From IMG/VR virus record IMGVR_UViG_3300022074_000482, positions 1-20,300 of that record: a DNA stretch of 20,300 nt, one strand, 5' to 3'. Position 1 is the stretch's first letter; every line of letters begins with the position of its first letter. The DNA is from a virus. Both the position numbers and the translations under genes were made by a program. Positions 282-18,507 of the stretch are shown here, piece after piece. The notes under the pieces are model-generated. The model saw only the letters and a program-made list of their open reading frames with translations. It was not told the DNA's origin and did no database searches.

Positions 282-455
282 ATGACTGAGTTTATCAACT
301 ATTGGTTCTTGTGGTGTGTAGACGCTATCCTCTGGATGGAAGCGGTATCTGGCATATCTTATGAAGCTTGGAATCTAATACTGTTTGTGTTGCTTCAACC
401 GCTTCTCATCATGGTTTTTTTCAGTCTATGGGTTCATGCAAGATTTGTGCGTTGA
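282..455 (+). CDS. Small membrane protein, 57 residues
   Basis: The ORF runs from ATG 282 to TGA 453-455. The protein is rich in Trp, Phe, Leu and Ile. It has a hydrophobic N-terminal part (about residues 5-19), a short polar stretch with EAVSGISYEAW, and a clear membrane segment at about residues 30-52, ending in HARFVR. It therefore probably sits in the host inner membrane with a short basic tail. Its size and topology would suit a holin or another small phage membrane protein, but no endolysin is seen nearby and I cannot assign a family. There is no clear Shine-Dalgarno sequence, because a palindrome occupies that position. Later in-frame starts would destroy the first hydrophobic segment, so I keep ATG 282. 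Confidence 0.6.
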   Translation: MTEFINYWFLWCVDAILWMEAVSGISYEAWNLILFVLLQPLLIMVFFSLWVHARFVR

Positions 456-468
456 TGCATAATTAGAA
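446..468 (+). promoter_or_regulatory. Recurrent element, copy 1: TGTGCGT box plus TGCATAA
   Basis: TGTGCGT at 446-452 starts 42 bases before the ATG at 488, and TGCATAATTAG follows at 456-466. The same box lies 42 bases before the start at 4870 and 41 bases before the start at 18522. The box overlaps the last codons of the membrane-protein gene. TGCATAAT resembles an extended -10 hexamer, so a promoter is the leading guess. No palindrome is formed in this copy. Confidence 0.45.
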
Positions 469-487
469 TGCCGGTGATATTGCTGGC

Positions 488-1366
488 ATGCGTGATTACC
501 AAAAAGTCTTTCTAAAAGCTGCATTCAATTCAATGCTTCCTGAGTTTATGGATCAGGACCGGCTTACGGCAGATAACATATCGCCGGAGTTACTTGCTGT
601 GCTTCGCAAGATTGGCGATCACTATTATAAAGATGAAGCAACCACACAGTCCCATATTGATCGATACCAGAAGCAAGGCAGCACAGGCAGGGTTCGTAAG
701 CTGCGTGCTGGATCGATTGACTATGGGCTGGTCAATGATTTTTTTGGTACTGGTGGGTTCTTCAAGGATTTTGAAGATCAGGGCTTTGCCACAGATCTGA
801 AAATGATGCTTGGCACGTTTTCAATAAAGCGTGAGGGCAACGGTTATCGTGTCACTGACAAGTATGACTTCTCAAGCAATCCCGCTTTTGTACGCGAGTA
901 CATCGATGAGATTGGTGATGTGATGCTGGACAATGGCAATAACGTCGATGTTGTGACCCAGTTCAAAGCTGCTATGCGTAAATCAAACAAAGAGCGTTCT
1001 AGGGGCATGAACCTAACAGGTCAGGCTTATCCGTTCCTGCGTATTCTTGGCAATCAGTTTGCGCCAGACACAATGTCTCCTGAGGACAGTGGGTCTATGT
1101 ATGTGGATATCTTTGTACCTGATGAGGACAAGGTTGATGATCTCACCCCTTCTCCACGTCCTGTCTTCTTTGAGGATGATGAGATAACGCCTGTATTCCC
1201 TGCCTCTCCAATGGATAGTGAGCGCAAGGGTTTACTAGATAGCGCAATGGACGCTTTGTTCCCTGCTGCCAAAGCCGATGAGCCGCAAGGCATGACACTT
1301 CCTACTCCCAAGCCTGAAAAGCCAATGGATATGCGTAGGGGAAGGAACATGGCCCGTGGCACCTAA
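488..1366 (+). CDS. Unrecognised phage protein, 292 residues
   Basis: The frame runs from ATG 488 to TAA 1364-1366. A possible ribosome binding site GGTGA lies at 473-477. Residues 1-190 look globular and include a stretch GTFSIKREGNGYRVTDKYDF (about 109-128) that resembles paired beta strands. From about residue 205 the chain becomes proline- and acid-rich (DDLTPSPRPVFFEDDEITP), then turns basic at the end with MDMRRGRNMARGT, which suggests a flexible tail. I do not recognise the family with confidence. Its place between a terminase-like end and the small-ORF island, in a structural cluster, suggests a late or packaging-associated role. The next gene starts inside its last codons at a GTG, so the two are probably translated together. 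Confidence 0.8.
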   Translation: MRDYQKVFLKAAFNSMLPEFMDQDRLTADNISPELLAVLRKIGDHYYKDEATTQSHIDRYQKQGSTGRVRKLRAGSIDYGLVNDFFGTGGFFKDFEDQGFATDLKMMLGTFSIKREGNGYRVTDKYDFSSNPAFVREYIDEIGDVMLDNGNNVDVVTQFKAAMRKSNKERSRGMNLTGQAYPFLRILGNQFAPDTMSPEDSGSMYVDIFVPDEDKVDDLTPSPRPVFFEDDEITPVFPASPMDSERKGLLDSAMDALFPAAKADEPQGMTLPTPKPEKPMDMRRGRNMARGT

Positions 1367-1664
1367 AACTCCGGCATGGACTCGTAAAGCAGGCAAGAAC
1401 CCCAAGGGCGGGCTGAATGCCAAGGGACGTGCTTCTTATAAGGGTGGCAAACTCAAGGCTCCTGTTAAGTCAGGAGACAACCCGCGCCGTGCCAGCTTCC
1501 TTGCTCGTATGGGAGGCATGCCGGGGCCAGAACGTGATTCCAAAGGCAGACCCACTCGCTTGTTGCTTTCGCTTCGGGCATGGGGTGCCTCGTCCAAGGC
1601 TGATGCCAAGAAGAAGGCAGCTGCCATATCTGCACGCAACAAAGCCAAGAAAGGTAAAGCGTAA
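1356..1664 (+). CDS. Small basic phage protein, DUF6321-like
   Basis: This 102-residue ORF begins at GTG 1356, inside the end of the previous gene. GGAAGG at 1340-1345 gives a fair ribosome binding site. The conserved core reads GKNPKGGLNAKGRASYKGG, then KAPVKSGDNPRRASFLARMG, MPGPERDSKGRPTRLLLSLR and AWGASS. I recognise this as the pattern of the small viral family I believe is DUF6321, found in phages and some algal viruses. The C-terminus is an Ala/Lys-rich helix. The strong positive charge suggests nucleic-acid contact, but no function is established. The stop TAA overlaps the ATG of the next ORF (TAATG). Confidence 0.82.
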   Translation: MAPKTPAWTRKAGKNPKGGLNAKGRASYKGGKLKAPVKSGDNPRRASFLARMGGMPGPERDSKGRPTRLLLSLRAWGASSKADAKKKAAAISARNKAKKGKA

Positions 1665-1774
1665 TGTATCACAGTAAAAAATCAGCACCGAAAAGTGGCG
1701 GTCTTACAAAGAAACAGAAGACATTGCCAAAGACCCTTCAATCAAAAATCATGAAGTCAAAAAAGAAAAAGTAA
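1664..1774 (+). CDS. Very small lysine-rich protein, 36 residues
   Basis: The ORF runs from ATG 1664 to TAA 1772-1774 and shares TAATG junctions with both neighbours. The product starts MYHSKKSAPKSGGLTKKQKT and ends MKSKKKK. About a third of its residues are lysine and it carries no acidic residue. I do not recognise a family, but lysine-rich peptides of this size are common next to packaging genes in marine phages. The exact overlap at both ends is the main argument that it is translated. It could be a DNA-condensing or minor head peptide. That is inference. Confidence 0.6.
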   Translation: MYHSKKSAPKSGGLTKKQKTLPKTLQSKIMKSKKKK

Positions 1775-2340
1775 TGTGTGTAGGCGCTCCCTCTGCTTCG
1801 CAGGAACAAGAAACCCGTTATACGCAAGCTACTATCTACGGCTCTGCCCAAGGTATGAATGACCCTATGGTCAGACGTAACAATGCTGCTATTGCAAATA
1901 TACAATCTCGTATAGATGCAAATGAAGAACGCATGGCAGCAATGAATCCTCTGATGCCGGGAAATGCAGCTGTCAGTGGTTTGTATGCTGCATCTAACTT
2001 CTTCAATGCCAGAATCATAGATGGGCTGCAAAGAGGCGGCACACCTGTAATGGATAGTAGCGGTAATGTTACTGGATCAAGAGATGCCAATAACAGACTG
2101 ACTGGTCGTGATCTAGCTGTTGAAGCCACTGAAGCCAAAAGGCAGCAACAGCAACAACAAGATGATCAAGATGAGAGAAGCCGTGCAGAAGAACGTGCAG
2201 CTGCTCAACCACAACCTCCAGCTGCGTCAGCAACAGCGCCGCCAGTGCCGAACACAAATAGGCGCCCAATCATTTATGAAGATCAGGCAATGAGTGGTGC
2301 CAGTAGTCGCGGCCCCGGCAGACGGAGTTTATTAGGATGA
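1774..2340 (+). CDS. Met-Cys phage protein with Gln/Pro-rich tail, 188 residues
   Basis: The frame runs from ATG 1774 to TGA 2338-2340 and overlaps both neighbours. It opens with MCVGAPSASQEQE, continues with a predicted helical segment (MVRRNNAAIANIQSRIDANE, about residues 32-51), and from about residue 110 turns low-complexity: EATEAKRQQQQQQDDQDE, then Pro/Ala-rich PQPPAASATAPPVP. It ends RGPGRRSLLG. The Met-Cys opening and the RSLL ending recur in the 70-residue protein at 4870, so the two may share a role or ancestry. Met-Cys proteins beside the portal or terminase genes are common in phages and are usually uncharacterised. I cannot assign a function. Confidence 0.75.
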   Translation: MCVGAPSASQEQETRYTQATIYGSAQGMNDPMVRRNNAAIANIQSRIDANEERMAAMNPLMPGNAAVSGLYAASNFFNARIIDGLQRGGTPVMDSSGNVTGSRDANNRLTGRDLAVEATEAKRQQQQQQDDQDERSRAEERAAAQPQPPAASATAPPVPNTNRRPIIYEDQAMSGASSRGPGRRSLLG

Positions 2341-2516
2341 GTAAAACCAAAAGCCGTGTGAATGAGGCTGGCAACTATACCAAGCCAACCATGCGTAAAA
2401 ATTTGTTCAACCGTATAAAGGCTGGCGGCAAGGGCGGTGCTCCGGGTCAATGGTCGGCAAGAAAAGCGCAAATGCTGGCTTTGCAATATAAGAAGGCTGG
2501 GGGCGGCTATCGATGA
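2337..2516 (+). CDS. Small conserved phage protein, 59 residues (AGNYTKP...GQWSARKAQ type)
   Basis: The ORF starts at ATG 2337 inside the previous stop (ATGA) and ends at TGA 2514-2516. Its core includes NEAGNYTKPTMRKNLFNRIK, AGGKGGAPGQWSARKAQML and a final KKAGGGYR. I recognise this pattern as a recurrent small ORF of marine phages, sometimes labelled structural or virion-associated, with no proven role. It is strongly basic and glycine-rich, which suits DNA or capsid contact. It is translationally coupled on both sides by ATGA overlaps. Confidence 0.75.
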   Translation: MSKTKSRVNEAGNYTKPTMRKNLFNRIKAGGKGGAPGQWSARKAQMLALQYKKAGGGYR

Positions 2517-2662
2517 AGCTGAGCGAAAGACAACAGAAGACTTTGTTAAAGCATGCAAAGCATCACTCATCAAAGCACATGAAACTCATGAGAAGCCTGA
2601 TGTCCAAAGGACAATCATTCACTAAGGCGCATAAGGCTGCTCAAAAGAAAGTCGGCACCTAA
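2513..2662 (+). CDS. Small His/Lys-rich helical phage protein, 49 residues
   Basis: The ORF runs from ATG 2513 to TAA 2660-2662. It overlaps the previous gene by ATGA and the next by TAATG. The product begins MKLSERQQKTLLKHAKHHSS and continues KHMKLMRSLMSKGQSFTKAH, ending KKVGT. It reads as two amphipathic basic helices with four histidines near the middle. I recognise near-identical small ORFs in other marine phages next to terminase genes, always without assigned function. The positive charge suggests nucleic-acid binding, but this is unproven. Confidence 0.75.
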   Translation: MKLSERQQKTLLKHAKHHSSKHMKLMRSLMSKGQSFTKAHKAAQKKVGT

Positions 2663-2913
2663 TGTCGCGCTCCAAGTCACAACGCTCATTAATGAACTGG
2701 ACCAAGCAGAAATGGCGCACAAAGTCTGGCAAGCCATCAACGCAAGGCTCCAAAGCAACGGGTGAGCGTTACCTACCAGAAGCAGCAATCAAGAATATGT
2801 CTGCGTCTGAGTATGCAGCAAGCACACGCAAGAAGCGCAAGGACAGGGCTGCTGGCAAGCAGTTCTCAAAGCAGCCAAAGAATATTGCCAAGAAAACCGC
2901 GAGGTACAGATAA
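2662..2913 (+). CDS. Small basic protein, DUF5872-like
   Basis: This 83-residue ORF runs from ATG 2662 to TAA 2911-2913. Its conserved features are LMNWTKQKWRTKSGKPS, GERYLPEAAIKNMSASEYAA, STRKKRKDRAAGKQF and SKQPKNIAKKTARYR. This W-x-x-x-K-W, SGKPS, RYLP and GKQF-x-x-QP order matches the small family I believe is DUF5872, found in viruses and some bacteria. It is highly basic. Its function is unknown, and the charge suggests DNA or RNA contact. It sits in the coupled island before the large terminase, with TAATG junctions on both sides. Confidence 0.82.
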   Translation: MSRSKSQRSLMNWTKQKWRTKSGKPSTQGSKATGERYLPEAAIKNMSASEYAASTRKKRKDRAAGKQFSKQPKNIAKKTARYR

Positions 2914-3122
2914 TGAAAACTAAGCCTAAGGCCCCAACCAAAAAAACATTACTTAAACAAACCGGCTCTTCTAACACATATGAAAGCCGCAAGCCATCAA
3001 GAGACACTGGGCTTAATGCAGAAGAGACTGACTATTTAAATCGTATGATTAAAAAGTTTGGTGATCTTGACGAAGCTCTTGACGCTCTGAAAGCTAAATA
3101 CGGTCATACTGGTCGTTTTTAA
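2913..3122 (+). CDS. Small phage protein, 69 residues
   Basis: The ORF runs from ATG 2913 to TAA 3120-3122 and starts inside the previous stop (TAATG). The N-terminal half is basic and probably disordered (MKTKPKAPTKKTLLKQTGSS). The C-terminal half forms a likely helical hairpin (AEETDYLNRMIKKFGDLDEA, then LDALKAKYGHTGRF). The family is not recognised. The split between a basic tail and a compact helical part would suit a small adaptor. One base separates it from the next start. Confidence 0.7.
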   Translation: MKTKPKAPTKKTLLKQTGSSNTYESRKPSRDTGLNAEETDYLNRMIKKFGDLDEALDALKAKYGHTGRF

Positions 3123-3123
3123 G

Positions 3124-3321
3124 ATGAGTACATTCCTTCATACATTAAAGCCGGAAGAGCGCCGCATCCTGCGTAAGGTGGTCAAAAAAGTACATTTCAA
3201 ATATCACCCGCGAGAGTTCTGCACTGACTTTGAAGCAGACAAGATGATTGCTGCCATTGGCCCAGAGACTGCTGCAAACCTTGTTCGTATCGGTAAGGAC
3301 TACCGTATAGATGAAATTTAA
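3124..3321 (+). CDS. Small phage protein upstream of the large terminase, 65 residues
   Basis: The ORF runs from ATG 3124 to TAA 3319-3321, and its end overlaps the start of the large terminase gene by 11 bases. The product opens MSTFLHTLKPEERRILRKVV, then has KVHFKYHPREFCTDFEADKM and IAAIGPETAANLVRIGKDYR. I recall similar short helical proteins directly upstream of terminase genes in marine phages, none with a known role. Consistent adjacency to the packaging motor makes an accessory packaging role plausible. It is less basic than most proteins of the preceding island. Confidence 0.72.
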   Translation: MSTFLHTLKPEERRILRKVVKKVHFKYHPREFCTDFEADKMIAAIGPETAANLVRIGKDYRIDEI

Positions 3322-4825
3322 GTACAAGCCTGATGGTGAAGTGCTGAAGTCATTCATGAAGAATGACACTTTCTTTCGGGGCATCCGCGGACCTGTAGGC
3401 TCCGGCAAATCTGTTGGGTGCTGTGTTGAAGTCTTCCGGCGTGCTTTGGAACAGAAGCCTAACGCAGAAGGCAAACGCAAAAGCAGATGGGCAATCATCA
3501 GGAACACCAACCCGCAGCTGCGTACCACTACAATCAAGACATGGCTTGACTGGTTCCCCGAAGATCAGTGGGGCAAGTTTACATGGTCTGTTCCCTACAC
3601 CCACAACATCAAAGCTGGTGACATCGAACTGGAGGTTATCTTCCTTGCGCTCGACAGGCCGGAAGATGTGAAGAAGCTGTTGTCACTGGAACTGACCGGC
3701 ATCTGGATTAATGAGGCCCGCGAAATTCCAAAGTCTATCATCGATGCTTGCACCATGCGTGTTGGCCGCTTTCCATCAATGCGTGAGGGCGGTCCCAGCT
3801 GGTCAGGTTTGATTGCAGATACAAATGCACCAGAGGAGGATCATTGGTGGCCTATCATGGCGGGCGAGGTTCCTGTTCCAGATCATATCCCAATGGAAGA
3901 AGCCAAGCTTCTTGTCAAACCAGACAATTGGGCATTCTTCTCACAACCCCCCGGCATGTCAGAAAAGCGAGACAGCGAGGGCGAACTCGACAGCTACGAG
4001 CCGAACAAGGAAGCAGAGAATGCACGGCACATGCTTCCCAGCTATTATCCAAATCTGATACAGGGCAAGTCTAAGTCATGGATCGATGTCTATGTGCTGA
4101 ACAAGCTTGGCTCTATCCAAGAAGGCAAGCCGGTTTATAATATGTTTGTCAGCGATACACACATAGCTAATGAAGAAATACCTGTTGCTGATTCGCTGCC
4201 AGTTATTGTGGGCTTGGACTTTGGCCTGACCCCAGCTGCTGTATTCGGGCAAAAGGTGCGTGGGCGTTGGCTTATCCTGCAAGAAATCGTTGCCTTTGAT
4301 ATGGGCATTGTTCGCTTTAGTGAACTCTTGAGATCTGAGATTGCTACTCGTTATGGCAACTGTGAGATCAATATCTTTGGTGATCCATCAGGTGATTTCC
4401 GCGCACAGACAGATGAATCCACACCCTTCCAAATCTTGCGCGGGGCTGGGCTTGTTGCCCGCCCTGCCCCGTCAAATGATGTTGCGTTGCGCTTAGAGGC
4501 TGTATCTACACCGCTTAATCGAATGGTCGAGGGCCAACCTGGCTTTTTAATTGATCCCCGCTGTAAGGAACTCATCAAAGGTTTTGAAGGCGGCTACAGT
4601 TACAGGCGCATACAGATATCTGGTGAGCGATATGATGACCGTCCAGACAAAAACCGCTTCTCTCATATCCATGATGCACTTCAATATCTGATGCTTGGAG
4701 CCGGTGAAGGGCGCAGGGTTCTCAACCACAATGCCAATGCAAGAGCATTCCAAGGGCGCAAAGAGTATGATGTCTTTGCCCGTTCTGCAAAGAAACGCAG
4801 ACAAGGCTTGTGGGCGCGTATGTAA
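3311..4825 (+). CDS. Terminase large subunit
   Basis: This is the DNA-packaging motor, 504 residues, with an N-terminal ATPase and a C-terminal nuclease. Residues 27-34 (GPVGSGKS) form the Walker A loop. Residues 131-135 (IWINE) form Walker B, with E135 as the likely catalytic carboxylate. The RNase H-like nuclease part shows D303 in VGLDFGLTP, D358 in IFGDPSGD and D455 in SHIHDALQY, the expected three acidic positions. The length is typical for a complete protein. The start at 3311 overlaps the preceding small ORF, so translation is probably coupled. The downstream genes encode the portal and head proteins it works with. Confidence 0.95.
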   Translation: MKFKYKPDGEVLKSFMKNDTFFRGIRGPVGSGKSVGCCVEVFRRALEQKPNAEGKRKSRWAIIRNTNPQLRTTTIKTWLDWFPEDQWGKFTWSVPYTHNIKAGDIELEVIFLALDRPEDVKKLLSLELTGIWINEAREIPKSIIDACTMRVGRFPSMREGGPSWSGLIADTNAPEEDHWWPIMAGEVPVPDHIPMEEAKLLVKPDNWAFFSQPPGMSEKRDSEGELDSYEPNKEAENARHMLPSYYPNLIQGKSKSWIDVYVLNKLGSIQEGKPVYNMFVSDTHIANEEIPVADSLPVIVGLDFGLTPAAVFGQKVRGRWLILQEIVAFDMGIVRFSELLRSEIATRYGNCEINIFGDPSGDFRAQTDESTPFQILRGAGLVARPAPSNDVALRLEAVSTPLNRMVEGQPGFLIDPRCKELIKGFEGGYSYRRIQISGERYDDRPDKNRFSHIHDALQYLMLGAGEGRRVLNHNANARAFQGRKEYDVFARSAKKRRQGLWARM

Positions 4826-4827
4826 TT

Positions 4828-4852
4828 TGTGCGTTGTCCTGCATTACTGCAG
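4828..4852 (+). promoter_or_regulatory. Recurrent element, copy 2: TGTGCGT box plus CTGCATTACTGCAG palindrome
   Basis: TGTGCGT at 4828-4834 starts 42 bases before ATG 4870. CTGCA-TTAC-TGCAG at 4839-4852 is a 5-base inverted repeat. AAGAGG at 4859-4864 follows as ribosome binding site. This is the clearest copy of the element, in a 44-base gap after the terminase stop. A start of transcription just past the palindrome would leave a short leader carrying the ribosome binding site. Confidence 0.5.
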
Positions 4853-4869
4853 CGTTGTAAGAGGAAATC

Positions 4870-5082
4870 ATGTGCCTAGCCAGACCACAAATGCCACGAC
4901 CTGACCCTGCTATCGAAGCAGAACGGCAGGAACGTATGCGTGCAGAAACAGAACAGAAGAAAGCAGACAGAGATAAGCGCGTCGATGATATGTCTGCCAA
5001 ACGAAGAACAGGTACAGGCATGCGCTCATTGCTTACTGGATCTAGTGGCGGCATTGGCTTTTATAATCCTTATAGGGACTAG
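4870..5082 (+). CDS. Small Met-Cys protein between terminase and portal, 70 residues
   Basis: The ORF runs from ATG 4870, with AAGAGG five bases upstream, to TAG 5080-5082. It begins MCLARPQMPRPDPAIEAERQ, has a highly charged central helix (RMRAETEQKKADRDKR), and ends MRSLLTGSSGGIGFYNPYRD. The Met-Cys opening with a proline-rich start and an RSLLTG-type end is a pattern I know from small phage proteins beside portal genes. Their role is not established, and a head or packaging accessory is a guess. The 188-residue protein at 1774 shares both ends. The portal gene starts three bases after its stop codon. Confidence 0.82.
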   Translation: MCLARPQMPRPDPAIEAERQERMRAETEQKKADRDKRVDDMSAKRRTGTGMRSLLTGSSGGIGFYNPYRD

Positions 5083-5084
5083 CA

Positions 5085-6623
5085 ATGCACGGCACAGCCA
5101 AGAACTTTCTCCAGAAATATGACAAAGCCAAATCACACCGGCTGCTGTTCGAAAACCTATTTGATGAGTGTTACGAGTATGCGCTGCCACAGCGTGAAGG
5201 GTTTTCATATCTAACACCGGGTCAACGACGCGATGATCGTATTTTTGATGAGACTGCTGTAGTCGGGGTGCAGGAGTTTGCATCACGCTTGCAGAACGGT
5301 ATCTGTCCAAACTTTGCACGTTGGGCTGACTTCATAGCTGGCAGTGAGGTTGCTGATGTAGACAGTGACCGTATTAATAATGAACTGGATGAAGTTACAG
5401 AATATGTATTCGAAGTTATCCAGAACTCAAACTTTGGACAGGAAGCACATGAAAGCTTCCTTGATCTTGCTGTGGGTACTGGCTGTCTCCTTGTTGAAGA
5501 AGGCGATGCCATCAACCCTGTTCGCTTCAATGCTGTCCCACTGCCGCAGCTTGTTCTTGAGAACGGGCCTGATGATCGTATTGATCATGTCTATCGTGAG
5601 CGCGAGTTACGTTGCGGTGATATACCTATTGCTTACCCAAAGGCTGACATTCCCAAGTCTATGAGTGAGCGCATCATGCGCCAGCCAGACAAGAAGATTA
5701 AGATCTTGGAAGTTGTCTGCCGCATGTATGACAAACCAAATGTCGAGCGTAACGGTTTCTATGTCATAGAAAAGGAAGCCGGTGAATTAATCTATGAGGA
5801 GATATTTGACGGTGCTGGCTCAAATCCTTTTGTTTGCTTCCGCTGGTCAAAAGCAGCGGGCGAAGTTTACGGACGAGGCCCGCTTGTCAATTCCCTCAGT
5901 GCGATCAAGACCACGAACCTCACAATCGAACTTGTGCTGGAAAATGCACAGATGGCGATCTCAGGCATCTACCAGATGGATGATGATGGAGTAATCAATA
6001 CCGATTCCATCAATCTGGTGCCGGGTACAATCATCCCGAAATCACCAACAAGCAGTGGCTTGCAACCAATTCGTGCTGCCGGTTCCTTTGATGTGGCTAA
6101 CCTGATTCTAAGTGACATGCGTAACAACATTAAGCGTGCGCTATATAATGACATGCTTGGTGATCCAAACAGAACACCGGCTACTGCTACTGAAGTGGCA
6201 GAGCGTATGGCTGATCTGTCTCGGCGTATTGGTTCTGCCTTTGGCAGATTACAGGCAGAGTTTATCCAGCCTGTATTACAGCGTGTTGTTTATATCCTGA
6301 AGAAGCAGGGCCGCATTGATATGCCGGTGATTAACGGGCGCGAAGTCAAAGTGCGCTCTGTATCTCCACTGGCACAGGCACAAGCCAATCAGGATATTGC
6401 ATCTGTTGATCGATTCTTGGAAATGGTTGGCATGCGCTTTGGTCCAGAGATGGTGAATTTACTGGTGTCTTCAGAGGAGACGGCAACCTTCCTAGCTAAG
6501 AAATTTGGTGTACCAGACGGTCTGATTAGGGATGCAGCTGAGCGTGAGCAAATCATGCAAGCAATGCAGCAGATGCAACAGATGCAGGGAGCAGCAAGTG
6601 GCGGGACAGCGCCTCCGACTTGA
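5085..6623 (+). CDS. Portal (head-tail connector) protein, T7 type
   Basis: This 512-residue protein belongs by overall pattern to the T7-like head-to-tail connector family. It has an N-terminal KNFLQKYDKAKSHRLLFENL, FDECYEYALPQREGF, the RIFDETAVVGVQEFASRLQN segment, and a wing region with FNAVPLPQLVLENG. Twelve copies would form the ring through which DNA enters and leaves the head. The C-terminus is Met/Gln-rich (MQAMQQMQQMQGAASGG), consistent with a flexible or coiled end. The length is close to the usual 500-550. AGGGA just before the preceding stop supports ATG 5085. The next gene starts at a GTG within its last codons. Confidence 0.93.
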   Translation: MHGTAKNFLQKYDKAKSHRLLFENLFDECYEYALPQREGFSYLTPGQRRDDRIFDETAVVGVQEFASRLQNGICPNFARWADFIAGSEVADVDSDRINNELDEVTEYVFEVIQNSNFGQEAHESFLDLAVGTGCLLVEEGDAINPVRFNAVPLPQLVLENGPDDRIDHVYRERELRCGDIPIAYPKADIPKSMSERIMRQPDKKIKILEVVCRMYDKPNVERNGFYVIEKEAGELIYEEIFDGAGSNPFVCFRWSKAAGEVYGRGPLVNSLSAIKTTNLTIELVLENAQMAISGIYQMDDDGVINTDSINLVPGTIIPKSPTSSGLQPIRAAGSFDVANLILSDMRNNIKRALYNDMLGDPNRTPATATEVAERMADLSRRIGSAFGRLQAEFIQPVLQRVVYILKKQGRIDMPVINGREVKVRSVSPLAQAQANQDIASVDRFLEMVGMRFGPEMVNLLVSSEETATFLAKKFGVPDGLIRDAAEREQIMQAMQQMQQMQGAASGGTAPPT

Positions 6624-6858: not shown

Positions 6859-7576
6859 AGCAGATAATGTGGAAGCTGTAGAAGCAGCTGAAGCACCTGT
6901 TGACGGTAGCCAATCTGGAGCCGACGAGCGACCCGAATGGCTTCCTGAAAAATTCAAGACACCAGAAGATCTTGTATCTTCCTACTCTCATCTTGAGACA
7001 AAGCTTGGCAAAAGTGATGATGAGTTACGAGCATCCATAAAGGATGAGTTGCATCAGGAACAATGGCAGGACAGACCAGCTACTGTTGGTGACTATCAGC
7101 TGCCGGAAAACCTCAATGAAGAAGAGGCTGTAGATAATGATCTGCTAAATTGGTGGGCGCAGTTCTCTTACGATAATGGTTATGGGCAGGAAAAGTTTGA
7201 AGCTGGCATCCAGAAATACGCCGATGCTGTCAATGCCGGTATGCCTGACCTTGAGGAAGAACATAAAATACTTGGCGATAATGCAGATGCACGCATCGAA
7301 GCTGTACGCTTGTGGGCTGATCAGTTCTTTGATGAAGCAGAATATGAAGCTGTCGAGCGTCTAGGACAGTCAGCTGCTGGCATCGAAGCTCTTGAAAAAA
7401 TCATGAGCAAGATCAATACACCATCTGTTCAAGGTGATGTCGTTGCTTCCAGCCAGCTGAATGAAGACGACTTGCGCGGCATGATGAATGACGAGCGTTA
7501 CTGGAAACAAGGAAGCCGTGATCAGGGTTTCATCAAACAAGTGAATGACGGCTTTGCCAAGCTTTACCAGCAATAG
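6851..7576 (+). CDS. Capsid scaffold protein, T7-like
   Basis: This acidic 241-residue protein would act as the internal scaffold for capsid assembly and leave before DNA packaging. I start it at ATG 6851 because AAAGGA at 6836-6841 stands nine bases upstream. An in-frame ATG at 6830 would add seven residues without such a site. The N-terminus is acidic and Ala-rich, followed by ERPEWLPEKFKTPEDLVSSY, a signature shared by many podovirus scaffold proteins. Then come an acidic helical middle and a C-terminal LNEDDLRGMMNDERYWKQGS with FIKQVNDGFAKLYQQ, the part that would contact the capsid protein. It overlaps the following gp13-like ORF. Confidence 0.88.
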   Translation: MDEADNVEAVEAAEAPVDGSQSGADERPEWLPEKFKTPEDLVSSYSHLETKLGKSDDELRASIKDELHQEQWQDRPATVGDYQLPENLNEEEAVDNDLLNWWAQFSYDNGYGQEKFEAGIQKYADAVNAGMPDLEEEHKILGDNADARIEAVRLWADQFFDEAEYEAVERLGQSAAGIEALEKIMSKINTPSVQGDVVASSQLNEDDLRGMMNDERYWKQGSRDQGFIKQVNDGFAKLYQQ

Positions 7577-8108
7577 CCGATACGGAAAGCTGATAGTAAA
7601 GCGTGCCACTGCGAAACATGCGGGTAAATTGCAGCACCTCCTCCGGCTGACAGATATCCGTGAATGTATGATTCAAGGCTCAACGCCGTGGCGCGCTTTA
7701 CACCAACCTCTGACAATCAAAGATGCTGAAACCTTTACAGCACTTGTTGGCAAGACACCGATCTGTATGGGTGGTGTGGTGCCACTGGTATTTGAAGATG
7801 GGTGTTACATAGGATCTATATGGCTGCTTGGTTCTCCTGCTGTCGAGGAGCATGCCAAGGACTTTCACAGGATGGTAATCGACTTGATTGATTACTTCCA
7901 AGACCAGTATGACCTTCTGGAAAACGTAGTTCCTGTCGAGCATGTACAAAGCATGAAATGGCTGGCACGTCTTGGCTTTGCATTTGCTGAGGAAGAAACA
8001 ATCATCAACGGCTTTGCTGTACGAAGATTTGTGCGTTGTGCGCCACAGTATTCAGTGTCATTCGAAGATAACGACGGCCCGCGTCTAACAGATGGCCCTT
8101 TAGGATAA
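7545..8108 (+). CDS. gp13-like protein (DUF2833, GNAT-like fold)
   Basis: This 187-residue protein resembles the T7 gp13 family, an internal or assembly protein. The segment YGKLIVKRATAKHAGKL (residues 13-29) and the terminal MKWLARLGFAFAEEE, TIINGFAVRRFVRC (137-165) follow an acetyltransferase-like fold, as in DUF2833. Whether it binds acetyl-CoA is unknown; I see no clear glycine loop. The start at ATG 7545 lies in the scaffold gene and lacks a good ribosome site. TTG 7554 is an alternative, and family similarity begins only at about residue 12. In T7 the gene lies after tail tubular B, but here it sits between scaffold and capsid. Codons remain protein-like for about 25 triplets past its TAA. 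Confidence 0.82.
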   Translation: MTALPSFTSNSRYGKLIVKRATAKHAGKLQHLLRLTDIRECMIQGSTPWRALHQPLTIKDAETFTALVGKTPICMGGVVPLVFEDGCYIGSIWLLGSPAVEEHAKDFHRMVIDLIDYFQDQYDLLENVVPVEHVQSMKWLARLGFAFAEEETIINGFAVRRFVRCAPQYSVSFEDNDGPRLTDGPLG

Positions 8109-8140
8109 CCAGTAGAAGAGCGAAGCGGACAACCGATCAC

Positions 8141-8168
8141 TGTTGAAACTCTTACTGCATTTATGCAG
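8141..8168 (+). promoter_or_regulatory. Recurrent element, copy 3 (weak box): TGTTGAA plus CTGCATTTATGCAG
   Basis: CTGCA-TTTA-TGCAG at 8155-8168 is a perfect inverted repeat (CTGCAT-TT-ATGCAG). TGTTGAA at 8141-8147 stands at the -42 position but matches TGTGCGT at only three of seven bases. The element lies in the 74-base gap before the capsid gene, a natural place for a promoter. The stretch also reads as protein in frame with the upstream gene, which is a caution. Confidence 0.35.
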
Positions 8169-8182
8169 GGAAGGACTGTAAA

Positions 8183-8995
8183 ATGGCGAATACGATTGAT
8201 ACCGCCTTCATTAAGCAGTTCGAGTCCGAGGTCATCATGGCGTATCAGCGCATGGGTTCTAAGCTAAAGAACACCATTCGTAATACGCAAGTGAGTGGAA
8301 ACACTGTTCGTTTCCAGAAAATCGGTACTGGTACTGCTTCTACTAAAAGCCGGAATGGCTCTGTAACACCTATGGAGCTTGCACACACAACCGTCGAATC
8401 GACTATGGCTGACTTCTATGCAGCTGAATATGTCGATAAGCTGGACGAGTTGAAGACAAACATCGATGAGCGTCAGGCTGTAGCAACCTCATCAGCTGCT
8501 GCCCTTGGTCGCAAGACTGACGAAATCATCTACACAGCAATGGATGCTGGTGCAAACAGCACACAGATTCATGACACAAGTTCAGCTATTGAAAAGGCTG
8601 ATCTGCTGAGTTTGTTTGAGACATTTGGTTCTGCCGATGTGCCAGAAGACGGTAGCCGCTTTCTTGCCATGCACCCGAAAGGGTTTGCTGATCTGTTCCT
8701 AATCAACGAATTCGCATCATCGGATTATGTTGGTGAGCAGAATCTGCCCTATGCTGGCGGCATGACAATGAAGCAGTTCCTTGGCTTCAATATCTTCTCA
8801 ACCTCTGCAATTACTGCCGGTAAGAACATGGCGTATCACACCAATGCTGTTGGCATTGGCGTAAACTCCGATGTCTCTACGGAAGTCAATTACATACCAG
8901 AGAAGGTATCTCACCTAACCACCTCGATGATGTCGATGGGCGCAGTTGTTATCAATGACAACGGTGTCTACGAAGTCCTCGACAACAATACCTAA
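8183..8995 (+). CDS. Major capsid protein
   Basis: This 270-residue protein is read as the major capsid protein. It begins MANTIDTAFIKQFESEVIMA and includes MADFYAAEYVDKLDELKTNI, DERQAVATSSAAALGRKTDE and a C-terminal VSHLTTSMMSMGAVVINDNG with VYEVLDNN. These match a capsid family of podoviruses expected to have the HK97 fold; the length is short but complete for that group. The ribosome site GGGAAGGA at 8168-8175 lies seven bases before ATG 8183, in keeping with high expression. A recurrent regulatory element stands just upstream. Scaffold two genes before and a small candidate decoration gene after support the call. Confidence 0.9.
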   Translation: MANTIDTAFIKQFESEVIMAYQRMGSKLKNTIRNTQVSGNTVRFQKIGTGTASTKSRNGSVTPMELAHTTVESTMADFYAAEYVDKLDELKTNIDERQAVATSSAAALGRKTDEIIYTAMDAGANSTQIHDTSSAIEKADLLSLFETFGSADVPEDGSRFLAMHPKGFADLFLINEFASSDYVGEQNLPYAGGMTMKQFLGFNIFSTSAITAGKNMAYHTNAVGIGVNSDVSTEVNYIPEKVSHLTTSMMSMGAVVINDNGVYEVLDNNT

Positions 8996-8996
8996 A

Positions 8997-9001: not shown

Positions 9002-9007
9002 TTTGTA

Positions 9008-9271: not shown

Positions 9272-9279
9272 TGGAGTTA

Positions 9280-12147: not shown

Positions 12148-12578
12148 TGAAAGCATTGATTGCTCTACAGGTTTTGACAGCAATTACCGGCATGAGTGCT
12201 GCCCGTGCAGAGGCACGCAGCGCACAGGCACAGGCAAAAAGCCAAGCACAGAACGCCAAGCTGCAAGGCATGGAAGCGCACAACAAACGCATGCGTGATC
12301 TGGATGTATTGATATCTACAAACAATGCCATGTCAGCCTATCTGGGGCGCGATGACAGAAGCATCGATGCTATCAACAGGCGCATTCGGCGTGATGCTGG
12401 CACTGATGCTGCGCGTATAGCCCAGAACACGCTACAGAACGTGCAGACATCGCTTCTTCAAGGAGAGGTTGCACGGGCAAGGGGCGAAAACAGGGCGCGT
12501 TCTATCCTGCTTGATAGCCTGTCTAGTGGCTATTCAAATTATCTAAGAATGAAAACCACAATACCGGGTGGTGACTGA
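12147..12578 (+). CDS. Internal virion protein, small (T7 gp14-like position)
   Basis: This 143-residue protein starts at ATG 12147 inside the nozzle-gene stop (TGATG). It opens with a hydrophobic helix, MKALIALQVLTAITGMSAAR, followed by a long Ala/Gln-rich helix (SAQAQAKSQAQNAKLQGMEA) and a second helical half with NAMSAYLGRDDRSIDAINRR. Position, length (T7 gp14: 196) and the membrane-active start fit the small internal protein that is ejected first and enters the outer membrane. The hydrophobic start also resembles a signal sequence, but context favours an ejection protein. Its stop overlaps the next ATG. Confidence 0.8.
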   Translation: MKALIALQVLTAITGMSAARAEARSAQAQAKSQAQNAKLQGMEAHNKRMRDLDVLISTNNAMSAYLGRDDRSIDAINRRIRRDAGTDAARIAQNTLQNVQTSLLQGEVARARGENRARSILLDSLSSGYSNYLRMKTTIPGGD

Positions 12579-14683
12579 TGGCTGGTGTAATCAAATCAAA
12601 AGGCAATCAGGTATTCACGGCGCAAGTCAGGTCAATCAATACTGACACGGGTTCTGGCTATGTGACTGAAGCGTTGCAGCGTGCCAATGCGCGTATCTCT
12701 GATTCAATTTATCGTCAGGCTGTTGATCAACAAAAACGTGCAGGACAAGAGTTTGCACGCAATCAGATCATTACATCTGTCAAAGACCCTGATGGCACTG
12801 AGCGGTTTGTAAACTCATTTGGCGATCTCTCTCAGGTTGCGCGTGATACTGCACGTCCACTGATAGAGCGCAAATACGCAGCTGCTTTTAATCGTGATGT
12901 AGAAGAGATGCTTATTGCCAAGCGTCAGGAATCAAAGAACAGCACTGATTTTGAAACACTTGCGTCTGTCGGGCTTCAAGGATTGCTTGATGCTGTCCCT
13001 CCAGAGTTTGAGTTTGCAGCCAAAGACACACTGGAAAACAGCGGTGCCTTGTCGCTTCTTCAGCATAAGCAATCAATGGTTCTTACTGAGCTGCGTCAGG
13101 AACGACAAGCAGCAATAGAAGCACAACAATCGCTTATTACTAAAGGCGTCACTTCAATTTCTACCCTTGTTGCAAATGGTGATCTGGCTGCTGCAAACGA
13201 AATTCGCAGGAACCTTTTAGATGATATTCAAGAAGGCGTTGATAATGGTCCATTAACCGATCAATTTCAAAATCGTGCGATTAAACAGATTGAACACTAC
13301 TATTATGGCTCCCTCCTTGTGAAGGACGCGCAAGAAGCATTGTTTGTTGGTGATGAGCAAACCGTATTTGAGATGATCAATGCGTTAGAAGGCAATACAT
13401 CTTTTACGATTGGTGATGAAGATACGTTTATTTCTGAATTGAAAGACACACAGGATATAACATTTGATGAAACAAGAAAGGTTATAGCATCTGATATCCG
13501 TCGAACGGTTAGCAACTTTTCTGGGTACCTAACAAATCTTGCTAAAAGGCAGTTTGCTGAAAATGTTGTAACCAATCTTGAAATTGGTAATTACCAATCT
13601 GATGACGCAAAATCCAAGACAGCATTCGGAGATTATTGGGCGGCTATTGGCGTTACCCAAGACAGACGTGGCTGGTTAAGCAAGCGTGCTGTTGCACTTG
13701 TACAAGATCAACAAGGCACACCCCATAAAGCAATCGTCAATGGCAACTTCTTACCACCTGTACTTGAAGGTCTGATGAATGGCATTGCATCTGGAAATGT
13801 CAAAGATCTTTCTCAAGAAGAATTAGAAGCTGCGGTAACTATTTATCAAACTGTTACACAAGGTGTTGGCAGAAGCGGTGATACCTATTCTGATAAAGGT
13901 CTTTCAGATGAGACTGTTACATTTTTTGATAATATTGATGAGTGGATTAATACTTTTGGCATTGGTTCGATCTTGCAAGGCGGGGGCATTTATGCAGGAA
14001 AAACTGGTAAAGATCGTAATGATGCAATCGAAGGTGGTGTTTTAAACAAACTTGATGGCCGCAATGCAAATGGTGCGATTATTACTTATTTGCGAGAAGA
14101 AGGTTTTCTTGATGGCCTGCCCGGTGAAGCAGCTAAACGATTGCTTGTTATTGCAAGGCCAGCCTACGGGTTTCTGTCTAAAGACATTGCAGACAAGGTT
14201 GTCAAAAATGCAATTGATAGGATTTATACCGAAACATCTTTAATACGCATGCCTGAAATTATTGGTGTTCAAGGTCCTATTGAACGCTCTGAGTTTGCAC
14301 CAGAAAGATTTTATGGTGACAACGTTGTTATGCATTCTTTCCTGCGCTTTGCTCATAAAAGGATCGAATCTGTAACAGGCAACAAAGGCACTCTTGGTGA
14401 AGACCTTTTTCTTTATCCATCAAATCAATCAACCAATCGGCGTGTTCGTTGGTTTGTAATTGATGCAAATGGTCAGAACCTTCCAAACAGTGAAGGCAGA
14501 CCTTTGTTAATCGACACTATGAACGTAAACAAAAATCAAAACATGCGGAGTTCTTTTGATGCAGCATTAGAGAAAAAGCTGGCTGATGCTCAAAAGATTC
14601 GTGACTTTGAAATCAACGAACAAAATAAACCGCGCCGTGTATTTGGCGGCCTTTATCAAAGGCCCACATCGGAAACAAATTAA
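12578..14683 (+). CDS. Internal virion protein, 701 residues (T7 gp15-like position)
   Basis: This 701-residue protein (T7 gp15: 747) sits between the gp14-like and gp16-like genes, the usual place of the middle ejection protein. It is mainly helical and charged, for example YVTEALQRANARISDSIYRQ near the N-terminus and MVLTELRQERQAAIEAQQSL around residues 168-187. The C-terminus is basic (KPRRVFGGLYQRPTSETN). I see no enzyme motif. The assignment rests on order, size and helical character rather than a clear signature. From about position 13140 to the end the gene is mostly poorer in G and C than its neighbours, which hints at mosaic origin. Two bases separate it from the next gene. Confidence 0.75.
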   Translation: MAGVIKSKGNQVFTAQVRSINTDTGSGYVTEALQRANARISDSIYRQAVDQQKRAGQEFARNQIITSVKDPDGTERFVNSFGDLSQVARDTARPLIERKYAAAFNRDVEEMLIAKRQESKNSTDFETLASVGLQGLLDAVPPEFEFAAKDTLENSGALSLLQHKQSMVLTELRQERQAAIEAQQSLITKGVTSISTLVANGDLAAANEIRRNLLDDIQEGVDNGPLTDQFQNRAIKQIEHYYYGSLLVKDAQEALFVGDEQTVFEMINALEGNTSFTIGDEDTFISELKDTQDITFDETRKVIASDIRRTVSNFSGYLTNLAKRQFAENVVTNLEIGNYQSDDAKSKTAFGDYWAAIGVTQDRRGWLSKRAVALVQDQQGTPHKAIVNGNFLPPVLEGLMNGIASGNVKDLSQEELEAAVTIYQTVTQGVGRSGDTYSDKGLSDETVTFFDNIDEWINTFGIGSILQGGGIYAGKTGKDRNDAIEGGVLNKLDGRNANGAIITYLREEGFLDGLPGEAAKRLLVIARPAYGFLSKDIADKVVKNAIDRIYTETSLIRMPEIIGVQGPIERSEFAPERFYGDNVVMHSFLRFAHKRIESVTGNKGTLGEDLFLYPSNQSTNRRVRWFVIDANGQNLPNSEGRPLLIDTMNVNKNQNMRSSFDAALEKKLADAQKIRDFEINEQNKPRRVFGGLYQRPTSETN

Positions 14684-14685
14684 TC

Positions 14686-17600
14686 ATGTCAGAAATTGAT
14701 TCCGCATATGTCCTGCCAACAAATGAAGATCTGACAGAAGGCCGTGTTGGTGATCCAACAACTTGGGAAGCTTTCAAAGCAACATGGGGATATCAATGGT
14801 CGCCGATCATTGATCGTCTCAATGAATACGGCAAGTTTGGTGAACTACCTTATGATCCTGAGTTTGATCCATTTACTGAAGAAAACTACAGCGGTTATGA
14901 AGAGTATTTAAATGAGTTGGCGCGTGCCAGAAACGCTGAACATTTAGGCGTTATCAAAGCTGATATCGATAGAAGACTTACAAACAAACAAACACTTGGT
15001 GATGCTGGCTTCTGGAGTGCTGGAGTATGGATTGGTGCTTTTACTGATCCTTTGAATATTGCATTTGCCATTCCTATCTGGGGGCAGCTGGGCCTTATGG
15101 CACGCGGCGGTATGACTGTAGGTCAGGCTGCGAGTGCCAGCTTCAGAGGCAGCTTGGTTGCTGGTGCTGTTTCTGAGGGCATTAGAGCGCCCTTCGATAG
15201 AACCAATACGCTTACAGAAACTGGCCTTAACATGGCTACCATGACAGCTGCTGGCACGATCTTGGGATCGCTTCCATCAATGGTCACTGGTTATCGTAGA
15301 TCTATTGCCAAACAGAATGAGGTTTATGAGCCTCGTCCTGTTATGAATGAGAGTGTTGATGGCTTTAAGATTACAAATAAACAAGCTGCTATGCCTGACC
15401 CACCAAAGGGCAGCCGTGTTGAGATTAGCATCCCTGCTAAAGAACTGGCACGCCTACGCAAGATTAGAGATGACATTGCAGCTGATGAGACACGCATAAA
15501 TCGTCTTGTGCGCCCAGCTGAAAGCGATGCCAATCTTGTAGCGTTACGCATTGAGGCCAAGGCACAGGGCATCCAGCCAACGGTCTTGCAGATGCAGCTT
15601 AATAAAGAACTTGCTTCAGTTACCAAAGCACGCAAAGCAGCTGATAAAGAACTCAAAGCAGCTGAAGCTGTGGTTGCCAAGGAAACCAAAGCCAATGCTG
15701 CTTATGACGGTGAACAAAAAGCCTATAAGCGGAAGATGGCACAGCGCAAAGCTGTGTTTACCAAAGGCAAAGATATCTCTGTTGATGATGAGATTATCGC
15801 AGAGGAATTCAACAAGCGTGTCTGGGTTAGTGAAGAAGTCAGGGGTTCTTCACCATTTCGTGAGACAGATTTTAAGACACCATCTGAGTGGCGCGACTAT
15901 TCTATTAATCGTGAGATTGTGCGGCGCAACAATCCTCGCAAACCGGGTGAGACACAGGCTGCATTTTATGATCGAACAGCCAAGGAAGCTTATAAGCGCA
16001 TGACATCTGGCTATGGTGTGGCTGATACAGCCTACACTAAGTCTGTCTTTTATAAGTTCTTATCCACACCTGGCAAACGGATCATGTCGAATGGTACTGG
16101 CATGATGCAGCGTGATTATCATCTGCTTGCTGGTGTTGATCAGTACCGTATGGCTGGCATTGAGAGCAACAAAACGCAGCATCAGTCAGTTTCTCGTGCA
16201 GCTAAGACACATATAGCGCGTGGTATTGCACTGAACGCAGAGATGCAGAAGCTGTGGTCGCTTGATGTTCTGAATAGAGAGCAATCAACCAAGATACTTG
16301 GCTATAACACTGATGCGCTTGTTGCAAAGCGTATGAATGCCAAGTCCTACGAGGATTGGTTTGCCACTGTTGTCGAAGGCCGCTTGCAAAAGCAGGGCAA
16401 GATGTATGATGCTTCTCTTCATGGTGAGAATTACAACAAGGCTGTTGAGCGCCTTGATCAATTCTTCAAGGAATACCGGCAAGAACTTGTTGAGTTGAAC
16501 ATCATTGCTGATGGTGCAAAGTTTTTAGAACGTGCTGCTGATTACGACGACTTTATACAGCGCATCAGAACGGAAACCCAGAACCCGACAGCACGTCAGA
16601 TCGAAGCTGTTAAAAAAGCTGAAGAGGCATCTCAGTATTACAAAGATCTGTACGAACTACGCTATAACGAGCGTTATGCATTTCCGATCTATTACGATAA
16701 GCGCAAGCTTCTTCAGGGCAACAATGCTCAGAAGCTGGAGCGTATCTTTGCAGACTGGATACGCAACCATCCCATCAAGAAAATGTACAATGATGAGACT
16801 AAACGCTTTGAGGCTGTAGCATCCAGTAGATCACCAGAAGCAATAGCCAAAGATTCAGTCGCAGCAATCTTGGAAGAAGGCACGCCAGAAACGCATCTTG
16901 ATGTCATGGCTGGTCCGTCCAAAGGCAAGCACTTACGCCACAGGATGATTGATATTCCTGAGTATTTGATTGCTGATTTTATCATTAAAGAACCGCGCGT
17001 AATCCAATCTTATGTGAGCCGTGTTGGCAAGCGTATCGAGTTTCACAGAAACTTTGGTCAACGCAGCATCGATGACATTCTTGATGATCATGATGCAGAC
17101 ATGATTGCTTCCGGCTTTCCAGAAAAGAAGCGACAAAAACTAAGACAGGATTTTCTGTTCGATTACGAGCGTGTGATGGGTGAGCATGTCAAAAACCCTG
17201 ACCGCATCGATGCACAGGCTGGCAAAGCTTTGCAGGAAATAGCTGGCATGGCGTATCTGGATGCAGCTGCTGTTGCTTCCATAACAGATGTTGGCAACAT
17301 CATCATGGAACATGGTGTTCGCAAACTTTTCAATCCTCTACGCACTGACACTGATCGTATTCTCATGGCAAAAGCCAAGAAGGAGTTAATACATACAGGT
17401 GAAGCAACAGAGCTTGCACTAGCTGGTGTTCAACAGCGTCTTATCCAAGATAATATTGAAGGCATAAATCCTAATTTACAGGAGCGATGGTTCGCGCCTG
17501 TTACGCGCATGTATTACAACATTCCCGTTTTGGGTAACGGTCTTGGAGCAGTTACTTATTATTTTAAAAAAATAGATCATGTGTATCGCTCGTCAAAATA

Positions 17601-18480
17601 CATGCAGACCATGATTGGAATGCAGGATGGCACAGCTACAAGAGCCGATGTTATTGATCTGAATCGTGCTGGCCTGACTGATGAAGATGCCAAGATTATT
17701 GCTAGCTACCCCTATGAGAAGGGCAACAGATACGTCTTTGCCAACTCTGATAACTGGCCGATGAAGACAGAGCGTGATCGTGAGATCTATCGCAAGTTCC
17801 AGACCGCACTGAATATCGGCATGGGAAATACAATCATCCATGCAAATGCGTTTGATAAGCCGCGGATTATGGATGGCGTTTTATATGCACAAAAACGTGG
17901 ATGGATGGATGCGCTGCCGGGAGACTGGTCGCCTGATCCCCGTGCATCGACAGCAAACATCAAGATGGTTCGCATTGAATCACACATGATGACCCTGCCC
18001 TTTCAGTTTTTTAATTTTATCCTTGGCGCTACGAACAGAATTACTGCGGGTATGTTTGATCCTATGAAGCAGCATCGTCTTATTGGCGGTATGTCGTTGC
18101 TTGCACTTGGATATGGTGTGCTTAGTTTAAAGAATGATGACTGGTGGTTTGATGCAAGATCTAACGCCGAAGTTTTTCAAAGAGTTGTAGATCAGTCTGG
18201 CTTGTTCGGTGTTTATAACGAGCTTGCTTACATAGCGACACATACCGCTATTGGCATGGGTATGATGGAAGCAGACGAAACGCTGCTGCGTCCTAAATAC
18301 AATCCAACAATGGGTGATGCTCTTACTGAGCCACTTGGTGCTGGTCCCGGTCTTTTGTTTGCATGGGGCAAGGCTGGCAAAGCGTGGCTTGAAGGCGACA
18401 CAGATGAGGCTGCAAAGCAGTTTCGTTACAACTATCCCACAACCCCAGCAATCGCGTTGTACAGAGATTGGGTCCAGTAA
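14686..18480 (+). CDS. Large internal virion protein, 1264 residues (T7 gp16-like position)
   Basis: This is the largest gene in the window and close in length to T7 gp16 (1318). Such proteins are ejected and help form the channel for DNA across the envelope. Hydrophobic stretches lie at residues 109-138 (FWSAGVWIGAFTDPLNIAFA onward) and 181-201. A long Lys/Ala/Glu-rich helix covers about 285-355. A membrane-seeking C-terminal region lies near 1100-1145 (MTLPFQFFNFILGATNRI, then GGMSLLALGYGVLSL). I see no lytic transglycosylase motif at the N-terminus, where T7 gp16 has one. The weak ribosome site suggests dependence on the upstream gene. The family call is from position, size and the C-terminal pattern. 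Confidence 0.82.
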   Translation: MSEIDSAYVLPTNEDLTEGRVGDPTTWEAFKATWGYQWSPIIDRLNEYGKFGELPYDPEFDPFTEENYSGYEEYLNELARARNAEHLGVIKADIDRRLTNKQTLGDAGFWSAGVWIGAFTDPLNIAFAIPIWGQLGLMARGGMTVGQAASASFRGSLVAGAVSEGIRAPFDRTNTLTETGLNMATMTAAGTILGSLPSMVTGYRRSIAKQNEVYEPRPVMNESVDGFKITNKQAAMPDPPKGSRVEISIPAKELARLRKIRDDIAADETRINRLVRPAESDANLVALRIEAKAQGIQPTVLQMQLNKELASVTKARKAADKELKAAEAVVAKETKANAAYDGEQKAYKRKMAQRKAVFTKGKDISVDDEIIAEEFNKRVWVSEEVRGSSPFRETDFKTPSEWRDYSINREIVRRNNPRKPGETQAAFYDRTAKEAYKRMTSGYGVADTAYTKSVFYKFLSTPGKRIMSNGTGMMQRDYHLLAGVDQYRMAGIESNKTQHQSVSRAAKTHIARGIALNAEMQKLWSLDVLNREQSTKILGYNTDALVAKRMNAKSYEDWFATVVEGRLQKQGKMYDASLHGENYNKAVERLDQFFKEYRQELVELNIIADGAKFLERAADYDDFIQRIRTETQNPTARQIEAVKKAEEASQYYKDLYELRYNERYAFPIYYDKRKLLQGNNAQKLERIFADWIRNHPIKKMYNDETKRFEAVASSRSPEAIAKDSVAAILEEGTPETHLDVMAGPSKGKHLRHRMIDIPEYLIADFIIKEPRVIQSYVSRVGKRIEFHRNFGQRSIDDILDDHDADMIASGFPEKKRQKLRQDFLFDYERVMGEHVKNPDRIDAQAGKALQEIAGMAYLDAAAVASITDVGNIIMEHGVRKLFNPLRTDTDRILMAKAKKELIHTGEATELALAGVQQRLIQDNIEGINPNLQERWFAPVTRMYYNIPVLGNGLGAVTYYFKKIDHVYRSSKYMQTMIGMQDGTATRADVIDLNRAGLTDEDAKIIASYPYEKGNRYVFANSDNWPMKTERDREIYRKFQTALNIGMGNTIIHANAFDKPRIMDGVLYAQKRGWMDALPGDWSPDPRASTANIKMVRIESHMMTLPFQFFNFILGATNRITAGMFDPMKQHRLIGGMSLLALGYGVLSLKNDDWWFDARSNAEVFQRVVDQSGLFGVYNELAYIATHTAIGMGMMEADETLLRPKYNPTMGDALTEPLGAGPGLLFAWGKAGKAWLEGDTDEAAKQFRYNYPTTPAIALYRDWVQ

Positions 18481-18507
18481 TGTGCGTGGAGTGCTGCATT
18501 AGTGCAT
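18481..18507 (+). promoter_or_regulatory. Recurrent element, copy 4: TGTGCGT box plus CTGCATTAGTGCAT
   Basis: TGTGCGT at 18481-18487 directly follows the stop of the gp16-like gene and starts 41 bases before the fibre ATG. CTGCATTAGTGCAT follows at 18494-18507 with a 4-base stem (TGCA-TTAG-TGCA). AGGA at 18514-18517 is the ribosome site. The arrangement closely parallels copy 2, which suggests separate control of the fibre gene. Confidence 0.5.

Follow-up and report, generated by a model that had tools for sequence, protein, structure and literature searches.

Which signal, if any, is marked by a short sequence that recurs before separate gene blocks of a marine podophage, and what reads it? 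Late transcription is the main switch in the phage life cycle, and the question is raised here by the window (the whole stretch of DNA analysed, a 20.3-kb marine podophage fragment), in which TGTGCGT begins at 446, 4828, and 18481, that is, 42, 42, and 41 bases before ATG 488, ATG 4870, and ATG 18522, respectively, as reported in a first-pass annotation and confirmed here. The recurrent box is real; the earlier list of copies and the second block described with it needed correction. The orthologous positions of the copies, their strand, their conservation, and the promoter geometry around them give good support to the earlier suggestion that this is a single regulatory signal, perhaps a late promoter.

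Sequences and comparison set

The window contains the C-terminal end of a small terminase gene (at the window start); terL (3311–4825); the portal gene (5085–6623); a scaffold gene, between portal and an acetyltransferase-like gene, g7545 (7545–8108); the capsid gene (8183–8995), followed by tail tube genes and then internal virion proteins; and the start of a tail fibre gene (18522 onward). Among isolates in the phage collection, Pelagibacter phage Hodr is nearest (terL, 64%; capsid, 53%); record OQ414635.1 (L083) is titled EXVC031P Hodr, yet its locus tags are those of EXVC032PBaldr. The comparison set consisted of 80 IMG/VR contigs with capsids 79–89% identical, and near-complete contigs were added afterwards. 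Box-bearing phages are almost entirely uncultured marine bacterial viruses with a GC content of 36–52%. No Rfam families were matched, and generic promoter and terminator scans gave counts under shuffle expectation and were uninformative.

Copies and conservation of the box

Exact copies of TTTGTGCGTTG are found at 444, 4826, and 8028 of the window (three, with 0.02 expected; at least three were reached in 0 of 100 shuffles), and a variant, TGTGCGTGG at 18481, is the fourth box, at the fibre site. Sites are lettered by the five orthologous places occupied in relatives: (a) before terS, (b) g488, (c) the terL/portal junction, (d) capsid, and (e) fibre. Site b (444–454, + strand; exact match) has TGTGCG at 446–451 directly 5' of the -35, and its box is kept ahead of g488-type genes at 18 distinct sites in relatives. 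Site c (4826–4836, + strand; exact match) lies immediately 3' of the terL stop codon; the box follows terL throughout the box-bearing clade, and in the box-less clade only a ribosome site is present there. Site d (8028–8038, + strand; exact match) lies in the 3' end of g7545, 153 bases 5' of the capsid ATG, a place kept in relatives; this is the perfect copy of the capsid gene, and the 'degraded box' formerly assigned to it at 8141 is not a family member. Site e (18481–18489, + strand) lies immediately 3' of the stop of a 1264-aa gene, and relatives have the box at the same place ahead of the fibre gene.

An unbiased k-mer count placed the 9-mer TGTGCGTTG and the 10-mer TTGTGCGTTG at the top, both repeated in most genomes; k-mer counts for Hodr and for the box-less clade gave nothing comparable that could have replaced the box. 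Across 0.90 Mb of capsid-retrieved relatives, 77 copies of TTGTGCGTTG were on the late strand and 0 on the opposite strand. The 25 box-bearing contigs held 68 forward copies against 1.1 expected, and late-strand copies of the box family fell at the five places, once each, in 87 of 90 cases. The box is not as frequent elsewhere: 0.63 Mb held 68 copies of TTGTGCGTTG on the forward strand and 4 on the reverse, with about one expected per strand. As it is also kept in relatives, neither of the two sequence-based grounds that the first-pass annotation had named for dropping its reading was found. A literature search for the letters of the box gave only incidental string matches among the matches listed.

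Sites b and d overlap coding sequence in the same reading frame (FVR-stop at b, FVRC at d), and on this ground shared descent or a constraint from coding might be held to account for the likeness of the boxes. This is refuted by sites a, c, and e, which are non-coding yet conserved. At site d, moreover, the box encodes Phe-Val-Arg-Cys with the codons TTT-GTG-CGT kept, even though 13% of valine codons are GTG and 31% of arginine codons are CGT (sites in this test were picked by motif, and L044, a locus with the box, has GTA); the spacer sequence around the box changes freely, whereas the box itself does not. The chance that ancestry or coding explains the box is next to negligible. Early-strand copies of TTGTGCGTTG (G045, 8876; G046, 29913; G049, 26433) belong to one early gene, where FVRC is also encoded; no promoter-like context was seen at these three copies.

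Predicted promoter anatomy

The TTG ending TTTGTGCGTTG is the start of a -35 hexamer. Read from the window sequence, all on the + strand, the -35-like hexamers are TTGATG at site b (452–457; TTG within the invariant block), TTGTCC at site c (4834–4839), TTGTGC at site d (8036–8041), and TGGAGT at site e (18487–18492). The corresponding -10-like hexamers are GATATT at site b (476–481), 18 bases past the -35 and with ATG 488, the predicted +1, 6 bases on; a weak TAAGAG at site c (4858–4863), 18 bases past the -35 and overlapping the ribosome site AGAGGA of gene 4870; a weak CATTCG at site d (about 8059–8064); and TATGAG at site e (18510–18515), 17 bases past the -35, with ATG 18522 6 bases on and with a possible ribosome site GAGGA overlapped. 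Because of these two overlaps, translation may account for part of the TA at c and e.

For the relatives, sites were aligned on the box, columns were counted from the start of TGTGCG, and 2000 rotation controls were run per site group. A second conserved block was found 17–18 bases past the TTG-started hexamer, about 7–12 bases before the ATG at b and e. The best six-column window exceeded all 2000 rotation controls in each group, with the neighbouring G run (site a) and the ribosome site (site e) contributing to the best windows there. It was positioned at +31 in a and b, from +27 in c and e, and at +25 in d, where it is off the -10 position, coding sequence being a cause that may account for this. 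Conserved columns are A at +31, +33, and +34 in site a; ATA at +31 to +33 in 10–12 of 15 diverse sequences in site b; TTA at +29 to +31 in site c, with A at +31 in 14 of 20 diverse sites; and T at +29 (9 of 10 diverse sites) and A at +30 (10 of 10) in site e. Every copy of site a has TTGACA, TTGACG or TTGACT as -35. The arrangement fits sigma70-type promoters, whose -35 and -10 are 16–19 bases apart: TTG is invariant or replaced by the variants TGG/TAG, and the block stands at 17–18 bases in a, b, c, and e; -10 matches are weak overall and weakest at d. The first-pass annotation had paired the box at fixed spacing with TGCATTA and read the latter as a possible -10. TGTGCGT-N5-TGCATTA is not enriched (6 matches, 3.5 expected) and TGCATTA is neither conserved across relatives nor the -10; a -10-like block is found instead at -12 to -7.

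This 17–18-base -35/-10 arrangement bears on the nature of the polymerase. Strand-specific, dispersed, short consensus sequences also occur in systems where the phage supplies its own RNA polymerase or sigma factor, as at late promoters of the T7-like or phiEco32-like kind; in phage 7-11 (phiEco32-like), late promoters of the form GTAAtg-16-aCTA are read by a phage sigma factor (PMC8948821). Dispersed bipartite late promoters with a recurrent consensus are shared with phage 7-11, but here no sigma factor was found, the consensus is unrelated, and the -35/-10 arrangement is seen instead. In ten related contigs no single-subunit RNA polymerase (PF00940) was detected, the T7 positive control being detected, and sigma region 4 (PF04545) gave no match above cut-off in the same ten; MEP301, a distant relative, also is without RNA polymerase (PMC8024684). 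A phage-encoded polymerase or sigma factor as reader thus has, in our judgement, a very small chance of being right.

At site b, the ATG is at +41 to +43 in 18 of 18 sites and none of the 18 has a Shine-Dalgarno-like motif upstream, the start codon thus standing at the predicted +1. In the window, g488 (488–1366, + strand; 292 aa) is on the same grounds of ATG placement and no Shine-Dalgarno-like motif predicted to be leaderless; the short leader with a ribosome site that had been proposed is absent at this gene, the ATG being at about +1. The fibre ATG is at +41 in 12 of 14 sites, and at site c, relatives with the ATG at 54–65 have a separate ribosome site 3' of the -10. The distances add up: TGTGCG (6), TTGNNN (6), spacer (17–18), -10 (6), and a further 6 bases give 41–42. 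From the ATG position, the lack of a Shine-Dalgarno motif, and this sum, it follows that the 41–42-base spacing is the distance from the box to the predicted transcription start. The constant spacing is, as far as sequence can tell, sigma70 promoter geometry, with predicted mRNAs leaderless or nearly so at g488 and fibre.

The ATG positions also bear on a possible function of the box in RNA, as a translation, processing or antitermination signal 3' of stop codons. The box is often directly 3' of a stop, and several relatives have small inverted repeats after it at site c; these repeats are, however, not universal, site d lies inside a coding region about 150 bases from its ATG, and the ATG keeps its -35-geometry distance from the box even at sites that have no ribosome site. 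We regard an RNA signal as highly unlikely and retain the promoter reading.

A separate palindrome

TGCATTA belongs, as one half, to a different element, a palindrome with the consensus TACTGCATTAATGCAGTA (TGCA-N4-TGCA). Of the four blocks assigned earlier, those at 4840, 8156, and 18495 are left halves of the palindrome, and the one at 456 has no palindrome. Copies in the window are TGCAATAATGCA (268–279), which overlaps the -10 of the sigma70-like promoter of ORF 282–455; TGCATTACTGCA (4840–4851), in the -35/-10 spacer of site c; TGCATTTATGCA (8156–8167), just 5' of the capsid ribosome site, as an operator or an RNA hairpin; and TGCATTAGTGCA (18495–18506), in the -35/-10 spacer of site e. 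Close relatives have 8–13 copies (about 2 expected), and box-less relatives 0–1.

G046 encodes a tyrosine integrase, and several of its palindromes separate a CI-like gene from the Cro-like – XRE operon that diverges from it. On account of this placement and the integrase, the best reading of the palindrome is a CI/Cro operator in a temperate phage; it is probably the operator of a CI/Cro-like repressor of the close, integrase-bearing relatives. The alternative offered by the first-pass annotation, that the signal is an operator, thus suits the palindrome and not the box. Lambda-like immunity regions (a CI-like gene divergent from Cro-like, XRE, nuclease-like, and O-like genes) with operator palindromes, together with a tyrosine integrase, were seen in G046 (28450–29587), G041, G045, G049, G051, and G054. 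Close relatives of the window look temperate; other box-bearing genomes are without a recognisable CI or integrase.

The promoter of ORF 282–455 was observed as a strong sigma70-like one within 248–282 (TTGACT, 248–253; 17 bases; AATAAT, 271–276), with ATG 282 5 bases past the -10. The ORF, which the palindrome precedes, encodes a small hydrophobic protein and may also be leaderless.

Candidate reader

Comparison of gene content pointed to a single family of early regulators, that of a small XRE/HTH_3 protein. Its gene is present in 17 box-bearing contigs and in 0 box-less close relatives; for 7 of the 17 the search had not relied on XRE, and when XRE was the only query, each of the 10 contigs >20 kb that it brought up bore the box. 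The gene lies outside the window, for which we infer it from the close relatives G045 and G046. Two XRE members are above the curated cut-off of HTH_3 (PF01381) and the G046 member is below it; sequence relatives in the PDB include C.AhdI and P22 C2, and a weak PHROG match is to CII-like regulators. In G046, a CI-like gene (28988–29587) is divergent from a Cro-like gene (28655–28855; assigned by position, no Pfam match); the XRE gene (28450–28701) is directly behind the latter and is followed by a nuclease-like gene and then an O-like gene (27181–27795). Four box-less genomes have the neighbouring nuclease gene without the XRE gene.

In a terL+portal+capsid tree, the box-less contigs except Hodr form one clade nested among box-bearing contigs; box and XRE were therefore lost together once, not many times, and the XRE link therefore counts as one independent event. 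In this clade the whole spacer at site c is gone, shrunk to the ribosome site, fibre genes are without the box, and g488 and, in part, the Cro-like gene are also lost. All that Hodr has is a distant HTH within another, larger protein. The Cro-like protein, a second small HTH protein, was rejected as reader, being still present in five box-less genomes. XRE dimers usually bind palindromes, and the asymmetry of the box was counted against XRE as reader. From the one co-loss, the gene position, and the family, XRE is a plausible candidate reader of the box, with about even odds.

A host transcription factor, in place of a phage protein, would be another reader for the proposed promoters. The site of CtrA is TTAA-N7-TTAA, which the box does not resemble. 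The box furthermore spans phages of 36–52% GC and is missing in a nested subclade that is also without XRE. Phage promoters can nevertheless be organised by host factors (PMC9437464), as with CtrA in some alphaproteobacterial phages; a host reader seems to us unlikely, and the XRE protein is kept as the candidate.

Proposed mechanism

The sequences give good support to late promoters that are served by the host polymerase and carry an activator box. Host RNA polymerase would read a dispersed set of late promoters marked by the box, each consisting of TTTGTGCG abutting a -35 whose TTG completes the box, a 17–18-base spacer, and a weak -10, with transcription predicted to start about 6 bases past the -10. 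At g488-type and fibre genes this start would be the ATG, so that the mRNAs would have no leader or almost none; in many relatives, the start for the portal and capsid operons would lie 5' of a normal ribosome site. The weakness of the -10s and the position of TGTGCG right against the -35 make it most likely that an activator is needed; it would be bound at about -37 to -44, with TGTGCG as activator box, and the small XRE-type early protein is the best candidate. In the temperate clade of the window, CI/Cro-like proteins probably silence early and late promoters in the lysogen via the palindrome, copies of which stand in early promoters as well as in some of the late-promoter spacers. Transcription from the sites, activation, and the identity of the reader are the parts that we infer, and the model as a whole (late promoters, activator box, XRE as candidate reader, palindrome as operator) is judged probable.

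More tentatively, and with somewhat less than an even chance of holding in full, the early operon may be lambda-like (cro – XRE – O-like), the protein in cII position acting as master late activator of five dispersed promoters via one asymmetric box, taking over from Q-type antitermination or a phage polymerase; several late mRNAs would be leaderless, and CI/Cro operators in the spacers would close some of the promoters in lysogeny. If true, leaderless genes would be found in a late region and an XRE protein would be a late activator. The ten-base box would predict late promoters in metagenomic contigs; together with the candidate activator, it makes late regulation testable in a marine podophage lineage without a close isolate or an RNA polymerase of its own.

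Likeness to known systems

The system resembles activation of the lambda PRM or CII type with leaderless mRNAs. At lambda PRM, CI bound at OR2 acts by class II activation, and likewise here a proposed activator box is set against the -35 of a predicted host sigma70-type promoter, the regulator (here a candidate) is of the XRE family, and the mRNA starts at AUG (here predicted). Differences from PRM are that the promoters here are dispersed late promoters with an asymmetric box abutting the -35, and that there is no evidence here of a single protein as both repressor and activator. The lambda cI mRNA is leaderless (PMC3017554, PMC4965119).

With the CII promoters of lambda (PRE, PI, PaQ) are shared a small HTH activator (here a candidate), whose gene comes just after a Cro-like gene and before an O-like replication gene, and recognition at the -35 region (here proposed); the CII-type order cro – candidate activator – O-like, divergent from cI, was found in G046. 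CII reads TTGC-N6-TTGC around the -35, and the targets here, in contrast, are late genes. CII-type TTGC-N6-TTGC repeats flanking the -35 were not found, the box being TTG-N4-TTG, and the system is therefore not classed as a CII member. Middle promoters of T4 also combine a phage activator box with host RNA polymerase (here proposed); the MotA box has its centre near -30 and takes the place of the -35, whereas the present box is at about -44 to -34 and the TTG of the -35 is kept.

Additional sequence features

Site a of relatives (e.g., G046, 32621–32680) runs into a paired G run, e.g., GGGGGGGATTACAGGGGGGG, at the predicted start; the G-run pair is kept and its middle is variable, and a G-quadruplex or a packaging mark is possible. 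In the capsid leader (window 8109–8182; L003–L082), repeated GGATAACC/GACAACC-like segments occur in box-bearing and box-less phages alike, and in some clades a hairpin lies just 5' of the ribosome site, with compensating differences (CTGTCAAATGACAG vs. CTGCTTTTTGCAG). Within the fibre gene, 19056–19700 is a long Ala/Ser/Thr-rich stretch, SATSANSSASTAT-like.
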